The notes beneath the pieces were generated by a model. That model made no database searches. It was not told the origin of the DNA and saw only the letters and a list, made by a program, of their open reading frames with translations. From Methanocorpusculum sp. (lineage in GTDB: Archaea; Halobacteriota; Methanomicrobia; Methanomicrobiales; Methanocorpusculaceae): a stretch of 64,000 bases of DNA. The position numbers were made by a program, and so were the translations under genes. Of the stretch, positions 972 through 6,250 are shown piece by piece. The stretch is from assembly GCA_017399555.1 (NCBI GenBank), contig JAFQBW010000045.1:1-64000 (forward strand), read 5' to 3'. The number at the start of each line of letters is the position of its first letter. Position 1 is the first letter of the stretch.

Positions 972-3900
972 TTAATTCTCTGGATACAGTGTATCCAAAG
1001 TCTCTTCTAAAGTACCCGCTTTTGCAGAAGGTACAGCATCGAACTGTCTGAAATTGTTCTTATAAATTGGAATATCCTTTGAGAAGCCAAGAATGTAACT
1101 TATAGCAATCTTATAGATAATTTCAGTTGGAGCTAAACCAAATACCTGCTTCTCGAAGATATGGCGGAGTCTGTCTCCCTTATCTGGGAAGAGCTCTTTC
1201 ATAGTCTCGCTCTGATACAGACGCTTGACAATCTCAGTAATATACATTCCAGACTTCATGTAGATATCAATAAATGTCTTATCTGGATTGTCAAAGCATC
1301 CAGGATTTTCCTCTTCAAGCATGTCAACCATCTTTTTTACAACCTTTTTCGGGGTGAAAATCTGGTTGGTTGCCTGCGGAGGGATATAATCAAAGATATC
1401 CTCGGTGCTTGTGTCCTCAAAGTAGTTTGCTAATTTGTATTTCTTGTTCAGGAATTCTTTTACTGAATCATTGAATACAATAGGGTCAAAGAGATTTCCG
1501 GCAAAGAACTTCTCTTCTCCCGTATCTTCATCAATATATGTTCCACCATCCCGCAGGAAACAGAACTGAGAAAGAGTAATTCCTGTTACCTCTAAGAAAA
1601 CCTCAGGAGGAATAATCTTATCAAAGTTTTCTAAGGTGACCGTCTCATTTCCATATGCCATAAGGAAAGAGGGAATAGTGCGTGAGAATCCGCGTAAGTG
1701 ATTGCGAATATTCTCCTCGTGGCTCTTCTTCTCTTTCTCCCGAATGTTTGTCTCAACAGATATGATTACTTCTTTCTGCGAGTTTTCGATGAACTCATCA
1801 ACGGCAGCCCCTAAATCAAGCTTGAACTGTTTACTTGCAGCTTCTATTTTTGAATCATACTCGCGGTTGATATCATCAGTAGAACGGTGTGTCTCATCTC
1901 TTGTCTGTAGTTCTATCTCACGTTTTGCTTCGATAATTTTCTTGTCTGTCTCATAGTCGTTTATGAGTCTCTCGACAAGTTTATCAGCTTCATGATTCAG
2001 GTTCTTCTCAATTCTGTCAATGCCCGTTACTTTTGGTTTTTCTGAGTAGGCATCTTTGACAGTCTGAATCATTTCAGTGACAAAACCATCTTTTACAGCA
2101 GATTTCAGTTTATTCTTGAATGAACCTGAGGTATACTCTTCCTTTGGAGATTCGACAAACATCTCTGCGATGTTGTCCTGAACGTTATAGATTTTTTCAC
2201 CAAAGATTCCGGCGGCTTGTCCAATGACAAATTCCTCTGGAACTGATACATCCCCCTTATCATCAAGGAATAATTCCTCCTGAGTGTCCTCAGATAGAGG
2301 GGTTTTCAGTTTTGGCTCTTCCACTGCTTCAAATGAGGTGATAAGATCCATCACTTCTTTGGGTGCGGAGAATACATTGCTGATGTTCTGGAAGAGGAAG
2401 TTGCTCATGAATCCGCGTTTGACGACTTCAACAGAACGAATCTTGCGAGGGATTTCAAGAACTTTTGTGGCGTCAAGTTCTATCATGACTCCATTTTCAT
2501 CTTCACCAATTACCGGGAAGAAGTTTAAGAGTTCGCGGATGTTTTCTTTGCGTGTCTCTGCGTCTCCTTTTCCTGCTGCGGTATTTGCGGATAAGTCATT
2601 TGCAAATTCTTCAAAGATGACAAGAGTTCTTGCTGGGTCGAAGTCAAAGACGTAGGCATTTTCCTTTCTCTTGAATCCTGTTCCTTCTTTGAATAAGCAG
2701 GGGTTCTGTGCTCTGAATGCTGCCTGCATGTAAAGAGCAGGGCTTTTCACATTACTGAGCATTAAGACCGCTGTCCATTCAGGAATGGTGATGCCTGTGG
2801 TTAACTGTCCAACGGACAAGGTGATAGTTTTGTCGTGTTCACGGATTGCCTGAACCACTTTGTCATAGGATTTCTGATTCTCAGACTCTTCATCCAGTTT
2901 CCCGTCTCCTGCGGCTAATACAATCTTATAGTCTTTGAATACAGGGTGATTCTTTAAGGTCTTTGCAAGAAGCCAGGCACTTTCCACTCTGTCTAACAGC
3001 CAGAAGGTGTGTTTTAATTCGTTTCGTAACTCCTCAGTTGAGAAGGGGAATTTTTCCTGTTGAACTAAGGCATCCAGGAATCTGTCAACAGACGAGGCAT
3101 ATTTGAAATATTTTCCGTTCTCATCAACCTTAAAGAACTCGTTTAAGTCAAACGCATATTCTTCCGTGTTGCCTTCAAGGTCTATTCCCTGTTCTATCTC
3201 GTCTTTGACGATTTCAGACATCTGATAGGTGAAGAGGTTCAGTTTTGGAAGGACGGCATAGGGACTCTCTACAACACCATCATTTGACTCCCATTCCTGT
3301 TTTCTCCGCTGTTCATCTGCATATGTCCAGTTATAGATAGCATCATCTGCGAACTTTGCATTTGCAAGAGCTTTGAAGGGAGTGCCTGAGAGATGAAGAG
3401 TGAACTTTCTCTTGATTCTGTCAAATGCAAAATCAGTCTTTGAAGTATCAACTCCTTCATGGGCTTCATCGACTATCAGGAGATCCCATTCCATTTCTGC
3501 AAGTTCGGAGAGTTTGTCAAACTTGCCGCCAAAGTAGAGAGAGCCTTTCAAATCCTGAAGACTGACAAATTCAATACATTTGCATTCCGGGTCTGCTGCC
3601 TGTTTTATGGAGAACTGATGACGAGAGAGGACACCTGCTTTTTCTTTGAGAGCATCAACTTCGCTGACAAAGAAGTAGCCAGATTCAGAACCAAGGAAGC
3701 GGGCATAGTCAGAGAACCAGGAGTTTGCAATGGCTGGTCTGTTTGTGAGAATCAGGATATTTTTTGCCCCGCTCCGTTTGCAGAAGTCGTATGTTGCCAG
3801 AGTTTTTCCAAAACGCGGTTTTGCGTTCCATAAGAATTCCCCATATTCATGGGATTTCTGGAATGCCAGGGTTTTCTCGACAGCTTCCTGCTGTTCTTCA

Positions 3901-4292
3901 CGTAATGTGTAAGGGATTACAATATCTAATGTGTCTAATATTCCATGATTTTCCCTGAATTCATAGAACATCTGTTTTGAATCACGACCGGAGATGTGAA
4001 ACCATTCGTTATCTTTACTATTCTCCTGTTCAATCCCGGACTTACGCAGATATACATGAAAGTCATCATCAGTGAATCTCTCGCCAGTTCCATCTTCATA
4101 GATGGCATTCCCACTCCATTCAAGTTCATATTCTACATCAGCGGTGTGTGTCTGCTGCCGAATACGTTTGTGAACTTCCTGTTCGGTGTAGCCAATCTTT
4201 GTCCATCCTTTATGACGAGGGATTTCAGGAGTTGTGTAGGCATAAATCTGCGGGAACGCCGGACGAGAGGTTTTGATTTTTACCGCACTCAT
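972..4292 (-). CDS. SF2 helicase with N-terminal GIY-YIG-like and C-terminal methylase-like domain, restriction subunit
   Basis: This 1106-residue protein looks like the translocase-nuclease subunit of a restriction-type system. Residues 14-46 (IYAYTT, KIGYT, then R43) resemble the T5orf172/GIY-YIG nuclease fold. The helicase core follows: KPRFGKT at 158-164 (Walker A), DEAH at 275-278, SGTP at 302-305, and QAAFRAQNP near 520 (motif VI). A charged coiled-coil stretch lies in the middle. Residues 976-1106 resemble the first half of an N6-adenine methyltransferase: IFTPKKVV (motif X) at 978-985, a diverged motif I at DIYMKSG (1009-1015), then motif II/III-like segments. The chain ends exactly where an NPPY motif IV would follow. 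That motif opens the gene immediately upstream, whose stop is one base from this ATG. The assignment is family inference. Confidence 0.75.
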   Translation of the reverse strand: MSAVKIKTSRPAFPQIYAYTTPEIPRHKGWTKIGYTEQEVHKRIRQQTHTADVEYELEWSGNAIYEDGTGERFTDDDFHVYLRKSGIEQENSKDNEWFHISGRDSKQMFYEFRENHGILDTLDIVIPYTLREEQQEAVEKTLAFQKSHEYGEFLWNAKPRFGKTLATYDFCKRSGAKNILILTNRPAIANSWFSDYARFLGSESGYFFVSEVDALKEKAGVLSRHQFSIKQAADPECKCIEFVSLQDLKGSLYFGGKFDKLSELAEMEWDLLIVDEAHEGVDTSKTDFAFDRIKRKFTLHLSGTPFKALANAKFADDAIYNWTYADEQRRKQEWESNDGVVESPYAVLPKLNLFTYQMSEIVKDEIEQGIDLEGNTEEYAFDLNEFFKVDENGKYFKYASSVDRFLDALVQQEKFPFSTEELRNELKHTFWLLDRVESAWLLAKTLKNHPVFKDYKIVLAAGDGKLDEESENQKSYDKVVQAIREHDKTITLSVGQLTTGITIPEWTAVLMLSNVKSPALYMQAAFRAQNPCLFKEGTGFKRKENAYVFDFDPARTLVIFEEFANDLSANTAAGKGDAETRKENIRELLNFFPVIGEDENGVMIELDATKVLEIPRKIRSVEVVKRGFMSNFLFQNISNVFSAPKEVMDLITSFEAVEEPKLKTPLSEDTQEELFLDDKGDVSVPEEFVIGQAAGIFGEKIYNVQDNIAEMFVESPKEEYTSGSFKNKLKSAVKDGFVTEMIQTVKDAYSEKPKVTGIDRIEKNLNHEADKLVERLINDYETDKKIIEAKREIELQTRDETHRSTDDINREYDSKIEAASKQFKLDLGAAVDEFIENSQKEVIISVETNIREKEKKSHEENIRNHLRGFSRTIPSFLMAYGNETVTLENFDKIIPPEVFLEVTGITLSQFCFLRDGGTYIDEDTGEEKFFAGNLFDPIVFNDSVKEFLNKKYKLANYFEDTSTEDIFDYIPPQATNQIFTPKKVVKKMVDMLEEENPGCFDNPDKTFIDIYMKSGMYITEIVKRLYQSETMKELFPDKGDRLRHIFEKQVFGLAPTEIIYKIAISYILGFSKDIPIYKNNFRQFDAVPSAKAGTLEETLDTLYPEN

Positions 4293-4293
4293 C

Positions 4294-5319
4294 TCACTTC
4301 ATCTCCTTTACATTCGTTTCTATAAAGGTGATTTCTTCATCCGAGAGACCATACTTTTTGTAGAGTTGCTGATCTATTTCTGGAATTGATACAGACCAGT
4401 CAATATCGGACTCATCAGTAAAGTTTTGGTTTGGCACATATTCCCATACATGTTTTCCAGTATGGTGAGTTGCTTTCTTAACACCCAGCAGAGCACGCGC
4501 AAATTTAGTTTTAATATATTTATTCAGATTCTCTGCCTCACCTTTTGTTGTAAACGTCCCTATGCTGAGGAACGTATCAGCAGAACCATCATCTGGATTG
4601 GCAATAATTGGAGGAGCTAAGGCTTCAAATGCCCCAGTACCGTTTGACTCAGAAATCAGAACATTGTACGTACCAATATGTGGATTCTCCTGCAAATATT
4701 CTGTCTTGATGTATCGAGACAGGCGTCCTGCCTTAGTTTTTGCAAACAATCTAATACATGGGACGGAAGAATCAGGCGTATCCATGAATATTTCGGGAAT
4801 CTGATCAACAATTCTGGAAATAATTTTGGCCCCCGTACCATCACCCAAAAGTGTTTTCACCTTAGGGTAATCAGCAAACAACTTGTCAGAAAATCTGTAT
4901 ATTCCCTGTGAAGAAATAATGTGGTTTAATCCTGCTTTCCCTTCATCAATAACGGATACCTTTTGCAATATTCCATTCAACTGTGGGTATGTGGTAAAGA
5001 TACCAATTTTACCAAATTTTTTCTTTGCACATCGAATAGTAATTACAACTCCGCCTTTAATATCTGTATTCGGGAAAATTTTTGAACCATCTGCTTCATA
5101 CATTAAAGGTTTTAAGTGCTCATCATTGAGCATTTTTTTATTCCATTTATTGTCAGTTTGCCCCGCATCAAATAAGAACCTGGCAGGAGTGATTAATTCA
5201 ACGCAGTCTGCTAACTTATATGCAGACTCCATAAATTTATCGTAAAGTGGGCTTTGACGTCCGTTATTCTCAACTTCTTCCTGATACGGCGGATTTCCAA
5301 TTACAAAATCAAACTTCAT
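4294..5319 (-). CDS. Eco57I-like DNA methylase half carrying NPPY (motif IV)
   Basis: The 341-residue protein begins MKFDFVIGNPPYQ, so the catalytic NPPY motif of N6-adenine methyltransferases sits at residues 9-12. No SAM-binding motif precedes it. The remaining sequence (ITPARFLFDAG, KIFPNTDIKGGV) is typical of Eco57I-type methylases, with a C-terminal part likely to recognise DNA. It cannot be a full methyltransferase alone. The upstream gene supplies motifs X to III and ends two codons' distance away, with stop and start separated by one base. The downstream helicase also ends in a motif X-III-like segment. The three genes are evidently co-translated. Confidence 0.8.
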   Translation of the reverse strand: MKFDFVIGNPPYQEEVENNGRQSPLYDKFMESAYKLADCVELITPARFLFDAGQTDNKWNKKMLNDEHLKPLMYEADGSKIFPNTDIKGGVVITIRCAKKKFGKIGIFTTYPQLNGILQKVSVIDEGKAGLNHIISSQGIYRFSDKLFADYPKVKTLLGDGTGAKIISRIVDQIPEIFMDTPDSSVPCIRLFAKTKAGRLSRYIKTEYLQENPHIGTYNVLISESNGTGAFEALAPPIIANPDDGSADTFLSIGTFTTKGEAENLNKYIKTKFARALLGVKKATHHTGKHVWEYVPNQNFTDESDIDWSVSIPEIDQQLYKKYGLSDEEITFIETNVKEMK

Positions 5320-5320
5320 T

Positions 5321-6250
5321 TTAGTATCCTCTCTTTAAACTGTTGAATTCAACTGACTCTTTGCTTCTCCAATCAAAAATTCTGCACTGTACTTTTTTTG
5401 GTTTTTCTTTCTTTTCTTCTCCTTCAATGAAATCAAGAAATGTCATCTGACGGAACTCATCTTCGAGTTTTCCTAAAGGAACAGTACCTGAGAGACCATC
5501 CATCTGCCAGAAATTCCAACAGATAATGTTTACAATCATTTTCAACTCGTCTGTTGTTGGAACACGAGCCCATCTCTCCTGCATATAATCAACAAAAGTC
5601 ACCAGTAGGTTAACTCTGGCTATCAGAAGACTGTCTCCCTGGAACTCATATCCATATGTGCTCTGATATGCTCGAATCGCCCACTTCAGCCAATCCTCCT
5701 CGTTATCAGTATTTTCATTAACCACACGCAGTTTTCTGTCGAGGAGTCCCATGCGTTTTTTTATCTCAATAATTTCCCCTGTTGAGGCATCGTATCGGGA
5801 AACAATGTACGGAGCTTCTCCGCAGGTGATTTCCAGGCGCTTGGAATCTACATACCGCTTCCAGTCTTCCGGCTTCTCAAACTGAATCGGAGTCTCTGTT
5901 GGAATCCAATCCTGCCCTGTCTCAATATTGAAGACGTCAGGTCGCCCAAACCACTCAGCATCACAGTAATTATTCATCTTGTTACAAATCCAGGAAGGAG
6001 TGAAAACCTCTGCTTTATTTCTCGTCCGCTCCTGCTGCTGTGCGAGACTTTTACTCACACGAGGCTCGATTACATCAGAGAGAAGACCACGCAGTAAAGT
6101 AACAGTGATGTGACTTTTTGCCGTGATGGATGAATCTATCTCAGTATATTCATCTGTTGCAAAAATGATGTTCGCCTTCATGGATTTATCCTGTAGGAGA
6201 TATGGTAAGACATCGCACACAGGATAGGAATTGAAGTCTATCAGGTCCAT
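5321..6250 (-). CDS. DNA methylase half with motifs X, I and II/III, no motif IV
   Basis: This 309-residue protein is the first gene of the operon. EVFTPSWICNKM at residues 81-92 is the methylase motif X region. LEITCGEAPYIVSRYD at 139-154 looks like the SAM-binding motif I of this family. YGYEFQGDSLLIARVNLL at 199-216 fits motif II, and IFDW at 291-294 fits motif III. There is no NPPY, which opens the next gene. The simplest reading is a gamma-class N6-adenine methyltransferase divided between motifs III and IV into two chains. Databases often call such proteins restriction subunit M. The start is ATG at 6250, and the gene faces a GC-rich intergenic stretch. Confidence 0.7.
   Translation of the reverse strand: MDLIDFNSYPVCDVLPYLLQDKSMKANIIFATDEYTEIDSSITAKSHITVTLLRGLLSDVIEPRVSKSLAQQQERTRNKAEVFTPSWICNKMNNYCDAEWFGRPDVFNIETGQDWIPTETPIQFEKPEDWKRYVDSKRLEITCGEAPYIVSRYDASTGEIIEIKKRMGLLDRKLRVVNENTDNEEDWLKWAIRAYQSTYGYEFQGDSLLIARVNLLVTFVDYMQERWARVPTTDELKMIVNIICWNFWQMDGLSGTVPLGKLEDEFRQMTFLDFIEGEEKKEKPKKVQCRIFDWRSKESVEFNSLKRGY

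Follow-up and report, generated by a model that had tools for sequence, protein, structure and literature searches.

Can one half of a methylase active site serve two enzymes, one that marks DNA and one that restricts it? The question is raised by a three-gene operon in a 64,000-nucleotide stretch of Methanocorpusculum sp. (contig JAFQBW010000045.1, positions 1 to 64,000 of the forward strand, assembly GCA_017399555.1), here called the window. The first gene, c1, encodes the S-adenosylmethionine (SAM)-binding half of an N6-adenine methylase, and the second, c2, begins with the catalytic NPPY motif and carries the target-recognition domain. The third, c3, encodes a helicase chain whose tail is another N-terminal methylase half with Lys in motif I (the Lys-type half or K-half). 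We consider it likely that c1 with c2 methylates, that c3 with c2 restricts, and that c2, as a shared subunit carrying half of the active site, sets both specificities.

The three chains and the Lys/Gly rule

The original prediction, made from the letters of the sequence and their open reading frames (ORFs), described three genes joined by one-base junctions, and this layout was observed: the ORFs lie on one strand with a single base from stop to next start at both the c1/c2 and the c2/c3 junction (Table 1). The motifs X, I-like and II/III assigned to the first gene and the NPPY start of the second were also found. c1 contains AEVFTP, EITCGEAPY and the motif II acid, has no NPPY, and matches the PADLOC model MTase_II PDLC03390 over residues 13-306 (343 bits); c2 has no motifs X-III and matches the C-terminal part of Pfam Eco57I alone (profile 73-171 of 171, E 4e-16). 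At 64 genome loci obtained with c1 as the query, all 62 readable c1 relatives have CGEAP as motif I, and the c2 relatives read NPPY in 48 of 50 cases and NPAY in the other two; across the wider set NPPY was retained in 160 of 165 readable c2 rows. The conservation of motifs across c1, c2 and the c3 tail is far beyond chance.

The tail of c3 contains FTP, DIYMKSG and FGLAPTEI. The second X/I/II/III half claimed for this chain is thus present, but its motif I, which had been called diverged, shows strict retention of Lys and not drift: K-S-G was kept in 42 of 42 c3 tails found at the 64 genome loci. The K-half is also the best-conserved part of c3, with a mean pairwise identity of 78% over 48 loci (residues 959-1050), compared with 69% in the helicase (residues 120-630), 56% in the GIY-YIG region and 46% in the middle part, named the coupler by analogy with Type ISP enzymes. 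Because of this conservation and of the retained K-S-G, the K-half is neither decayed nor drifting but a strictly kept Lys variant.

The survey was widened to plasmid records from the c1 and c3 searches (3 of 17 and 12 of 83 examined, 60 of the latter being listed), to phage records from the c1 search (2 of 7), to 79 viral loci found with a Khalf-c2 alignment (from the best 80 of 156 relatives) and to 26 viral loci found with a c1 alignment, 14 of them on contigs already in the set; viral scans with single sequences (c3 and a Pediococcus fused chain) gave no relatives. In counts that exclude the window copies, L072-L075, the 14 loci on contigs already counted, identical segments and halves scoring 100 bits or less (a limit that drops a distant phage subgroup whose in-cis halves carry Gly), the pattern [DE]xxxK[STN]G was found in 105 of 107 distinct K-class halves, and Lys occurred in none of 139 G-class (c1-type) halves. 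Among the latter, 137 read GxG or CGEAP and two are unreadable (L243, cut by the contig end, and L060, a piece of c1). None of the 114 readable K rows (61 tw, 13 te, 40 td) has the motif II acid; it is kept in 85 of 86 readable c1w rows and in every c1d string displayed. These are counts of rows, with near-identical contigs included and the distant phage subgroup excluded, in a register between the two classes that was set by eye.

As a control, 295 genomes of the window's phylum were searched for Eco57I-family methylases. Fifty loci (the 30 best-scoring and 20 chosen regions, among them L199, known beforehand as a relative) gave Gly in 41, Lys in one (L199) and an unreadable motif in eight. 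L199 was the sole control locus with a separate c1, and the 30 best-scoring loci have short flanks, so that a distant c1 would escape; without L199, Gly stands in 41 of 41 readable loci, the reading of L201 being doubtful. Since the K-half lacks both cofactor-binding signatures, we infer that it has lost SAM binding and that its pairing with c2 is most likely a non-methylating recognition complex.

The remainder of c3 matches Pfam ResIII (residues 128-306, E 1e-14). The N-terminal GIY-YIG-like domain proposed as the nuclease fits the signature residues Y17, Y19, K32-I-G-x-T36, R43, H79 and E96, kept in 46-47 of 48 aligned c3 sequences, and the relative L151 exceeds the Pfam cut-offs for T5orf172 (E 1e-10) and MUG113; the match of the window chain itself falls short of its cut-off. 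One helicase-chain homologue has been reported to contain a GIY-YIG domain (PMC4996451), and in Pfam no match of c3 up to E 1 belongs to the Mrr family. At L025 (8968-10680) the start of a metallophosphoesterase (Pfam E 3e-7) is fused to the coupler and Lys-half of c3 and adjoined by a complete c1, with no c2 seen; this may be a deletion product or another effector.

Table 1. Positions of the operon genes and of their domains and motifs in the window
Feature	Position	Strand	Description
c1	5321-6250	minus	ORF, 309 amino acids; SAM-binding half of gamma-class N6-adenine methylase (G-half, M1.DrdVI-like)
c1 motif X, AEVFTP	5996-6013	minus	residues 80-85
c1 motif I variant, EITCGEAPY	5807-5833	minus	from residue 140
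c2	4294-5319	minus	ORF, 341 amino acids; NPPY half and target-recognition domain
c2 NPPY	5284-5295	minus	residues 9-12
c3	972-4292	minus	ORF, 1106 amino acids; GIY-YIG-like domain, superfamily 2 (SF2) helicase, coupler and Lys-type N-half
GIY-YIG-like nuclease domain (predicted)	3948-4247	minus	residues about 16-115
SF2 helicase-like ATPase	2373-3935	minus	residues about 120-640; ResIII match
K-half (X/I/II/III half, Lys in motif I)	975-1424	minus	residues 957-1106
K1013-S1014-G1015	1248-1256	minus	Lys replaces first Gly of motif I; 48/48 in c3 alignment
A1054-P1055-T1056	1125-1133	minus	motif II site without SAM-binding acid; register to c1 motif by eye

Natural fusions and predicted folds

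In the survey, G denotes the SAM-half, K the Lys-half, C the c2 chain and H the helicase. Where all of G, K and C are present (102 loci, a few of them near-identical: L099-L101; L144/L145), G and C are separate and C is free beside an H-K chain in 41, K and C are fused without H in that chain in 35, H-K-C forms a single chain in 16, G and C are fused in 9, and one locus has another layout. c2 is therefore naturally fused to either partner half, to a K-type half in 51 loci and to G in 9, and the fused homologues that the original prediction proposed to look for do exist. A G-half is also present at 105 of 109 K-loci, those without it being a fragment (L087), a truncated remnant (L088) and two loci at contig edges (L112 and L141). 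As loci found through c1 contain c1 by construction, a fairer figure comes from the loci not found in this way, 56 of 60 (9/10, 46/49 and 1/1). L088 is an N-truncated Khalf-c2 piece with genes for a phage portal and capsid next to it.

A G-C pair lacking both K and helicase was seen in phage PTm1 (L066) and L137; in phage FNU4 (L070), L126 and L130 such a pair forms one fused chain. A search of these records with the window c3, run with no positive control, gave no match. L132, with c1 and c2 and no c3, was dropped as an orphan pair, since the edge of the contig is close to the end of its c2.

The natural c1-c2 fusion of L056 (661 amino acids, 35 alignment rows) was predicted by AlphaFold with a mean local confidence (pLDDT) of 85.5 and a predicted template modelling score (pTM) of 0.82; for the Khalf-c2 part of L088 (model B; 512 amino acids, 41 alignment rows) the values were 87.9 and 0.80. 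When compared by VIA-align, both models matched CamA, DrdV, LlaGI (5ffj_B), BrxX and M.BseCI across both halves, and model B additionally matched M.TaqI. Each pairing is thus predicted to give a complete methylase-like fold and, since the same solved methylases are matched across both halves, c1 and the K-half hold corresponding places in the modelled fold; occupying corresponding positions, they would be mutually exclusive on one c2. The fusions both ways and these folds support the proposal that the NPPY chain is able to complete either half. Neither outcome named beforehand as refuting it arose: a complete methylase is absent from every single chain of the window, and the halves do pair in homologues.

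In sequence searches against solved structures c1 gave an unconvincing best match (E 0.51), c3 none at E 0.01, and the Khalf-c2 profile a marginal match to BrxX (E 0.03). In NCBIfam c2 and c3 have weak matches far below the cut-offs and c1 has none, and the PADLOC labels MTase_II and REase_MTase_IIG name parts of the operon and not the split.

A probable shared role of c2 and the alternatives

We compared pairwise identities of the three chains over 48 loci, or 42 after near-duplicates of c3 were dropped. Those of c1 and c3 correlate (r 0.69, 0 of 300 permutations as high), and those of c2 are hardly related to c1 (0.15, 39/300) or to c3 (0.06, 85/300), nor does the NPPY part of c2 alone follow c1 (0.20, 20/300) or c3 (0.12, 46/300) closely. 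The identities of c1, c2 and c3 are 97, 53 and 99% between L036 and L063, and 77, 26 and 97% between L105 and L107; in the six pairs profiled the middle of c2 was most divergent. Judged by its variation among loci, c2 behaves as an HsdS-like specificity subunit, independent of c1 and c3.

Cassettes of c2 were also observed. At L133 (7009-15004, on a contig shared with L219) three lie together next to c1, one fused to helicase-Khalf, one free and inverted and one headless; a tyrosine recombinase adjoins them (Pfam Phage_integrase E 4e-28), and a 33-nt inverted repeat with one mismatch, placed on the NPPY codons, links the free and headless cassettes. In L151 (2646-8491) two further c2 genes and one G-half of 141 amino acids come after a helicase-Khalf-c2 chain; three NPPY chains thus stand beside one SAM-half, and the c2 borders are repeated.

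At L060 (7938-11152) an inversion inside the operon takes in c2 and the 3' part of c1 and has a 30-nt imperfect inverted repeat at its ends; this may be a real switch or an assembly error. The gap between c1 and c2 looks as if it were an insertion site: it holds a GmrSD gene at L026 (8924-10912), genes of nucleotidyltransferase, HEPN, PIN and AAA families at L017, L018, L020, L036, L038 and L044, and no ORF of at least 90 amino acids at L033, L050 and L052. Spare copies of c2 in these gaps were ruled out, as the gap ORFs of at least 90 amino acids are other genes.

According to the reading that we prefer, c1 and c2 would form a two-chain N6-adenine methylase that marks host sites. The c3 tail would form with c2 the same fold without binding of the methyl donor, and this assembly would act as a recognition and base-flipping head on a translocating ATPase and a GIY-YIG-type nuclease, starting cleavage at unmethylated sites. 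The two N-halves would bind c2 on one and the same face, which would limit each c2 to a single complex at any moment, and the two specificities would be fixed by one recognition domain, in the manner of HsdS in Type I systems. We infer that the pairings exchange or act as a switch.

Several points weigh against this reading. The main difficulty is that 51 loci, including that of DrdVI, tether c2 to a K-half, so that c1 must displace the cis half or bind otherwise. The Lys rule fails in the distant phage subgroup (L136, L154-L161 and L163-L165), whose in-cis N-halves are of Gly type and several members of which carry a further free N-half; before the score limit, the 67 td rows comprised 40 with Lys, 26 with Gly and one blank. 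In L079 (an Arthrobacter plasmid) and L120 (a viral contig) STAG replaces KSG and a separate c1 is retained. The models are single chains from one fusion of each kind, the source of model B is a remnant chain with a truncated N-terminus (its Khalf-c2 part is complete), and the root mean square deviations in VIA-align are about 4-8 overall and 5-8, which is high, over the long alignments. The N-terminus of the window c3 matches the GIY-YIG-like MUG113 at E 9e-4, below the Pfam cut-off. We know of no restriction assay for this subfamily, and in the published DrdVI and MaeIV clones M1 and M2 were expressed and reported together, leaving the need for each unseparated (PMC6430315, PMC10113651).

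The best surviving alternative, which we regard as unlikely, is that c1 and c2 form a permanent methylase onto which the K-half docks without replacing c1, giving one large Type I-like complex and no exchange. The co-divergence of c1 and c3, as direct partners might show, and the near-constant presence of c1 at K-loci would suit such docking. Against it stand the 51 loci at which the K-half is fused to c2, and the prediction for such a fused chain, in which the two parts complete each other and match M.TaqI, CamA and LlaGI over both halves. It is improbable that both pairings methylate, one per strand or per context. Two complete predicted folds and the retention of NPPY would allow it, but the K-half lacks both SAM signatures, and the published targets, GCAGCC (M1-2.DrdVI) and GCACY, are non-palindromic (PMC6430315, PMC10113651), GCAGCC having no adenine on its other strand. 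A third alternative would make the c3 tail a relic, in decay, of an old single-chain Type ISP-like enzyme, with c1-c2 and the helicase alone of importance. It recalls the 16 loci with helicase-Khalf-c2 single chains beside c1 and the domain order described for Type ISP enzymes (PMC4666363), but was rejected as highly implausible on the conservation of the tail, which exceeds that of helicase and coupler, and of its K-S-G.

Relatives, phage halves and meaning

The closest described relative is the DrdVI/MaeIV split restriction-modification family (M1, M2 and R in REBASE), which is already in print and has a separate SAM-half, an NPPY chain and a chain with GIY-YIG and translocase. The window shares with it a separate M1 chain that has motif X and a motif I of SAM type but no NPPY, and an SF2 translocase R chain. 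The fused Lys-half-NPPY M2 is not found there: c2 is a free chain that begins with NPPY, and the tail of the helicase chain supplies the Lys-half, whereas at the pDrdVI locus (L077) c1, Khalf-c2 and helicase are separate chains. Cloned M1 and M2 of DrdVI and MaeIV together are reported to give N6-methyladenine (PMC6430315, PMC10113651). A non-SAM half or a shared half is not mentioned in PMC6430315 or in passages of PMC10113651 and PMC4996451, and no account of the free shared half, the Lys/Gly rule, the c2 inversion cassette or lone phage c1-halves came up in a search of open-access papers, which did not cover REBASE. TaqIII, considered as a relative, proved unrelated in the part of PMC5587805 consulted.

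Type ISP enzymes (LlaGI, LlaBIII) share the order nuclease, SF2 ATPase, coupler, methylase and target-recognition domain, and both models match LlaGI. They are described as single chains with an Mrr-family nuclease (PMC4666363), unlike the window with its three ORFs, GIY-YIG-like domain and two alternative N-halves. As in Type I systems (HsdM, HsdS and HsdR), where HsdS-type inversions have been described (PMC5198162), the specificity subunit varies or inverts independently of its partners. The window differs in that this subunit carries NPPY, half of the active site, and that it has no complete HsdM-type chain, c1 and c2 each lacking the motifs of the other. In Type I systems one specificity subunit serves both modification and restriction, and the fusions both ways and the independent variation of c2 would support such sharing in the window. 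HsdM is by itself a complete methylase, and catalytic motifs are absent from HsdS. METTL3-METTL14 and MTA1-MTA9 join a catalytic to a non-catalytic methylase-like partner as pairs of complete folds, unlike the halves of one fold in the window, which would be alternatives for one partner.

Lone c1-type halves were found on eight IMG/VR contigs of 5-57 kb (L228, L234, L235, L238, L239, L240, L241 and L244). No c2 or Eco57I match was seen anywhere in these records, which may be incomplete, and the same c2 profile matched five other records in that search; L233, near-identical to L234, lay outside it. Motif I and II residues are kept in 7 of 7 aligned lone halves, the partial frame of L238 lying outside the alignment, and the L235 and L228 contigs carry terminase genes. 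These halves are possible counter-defence proteins. We tentatively suggest, as a notion that may well prove wrong, that swapping the cofactor half toggles between methylation and restriction, that a lone phage c1 captures host c2, methylating phage DNA and starving the restriction complex, and that elsewhere one SAM-half serves several or invertible c2 cassettes. Phages also carry arrays of NPPY chains: L158 (3311-10349) has five, with near-identical Gly-type N-halves and different recognition parts, and similar arrays occur in L154-L156, L160, L161, L163 and L164. Arrays of this kind also hold a further free N-half of about 150-185 amino acids.

The assembly contains an mcrB match, identifying a methanogen. 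The G+C content of the operon is 0.38-0.43, compared with 0.48-0.56 across the next 10 kb, the closest c1 relatives found in a genome search with c1 (identities reaching 64%) come from bacteria of the gut and rumen, for example Lachnospiraceae, and a c3 search matched just 2 of 60 related genomes beyond its own; together these compositional and similarity data point to horizontal gain of the operon. A PDDEXK_3 protein (Pfam E 3.5e-27) adjoins the operon at 13-294 of the window.

We place the operon with the DrdVI-like split systems, as a variant whose sequence rule is unusually clear. This Lys/Gly rule predicts the role of genes that are currently annotated as 'restriction endonuclease subunit M' without a mechanism. 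Restriction systems must keep their marking and cutting specificities in step, and if our reading is true, exchange of one gene would change both, as with HsdS, but through a split active site. It would also suggest a new kind of phage counter-defence.

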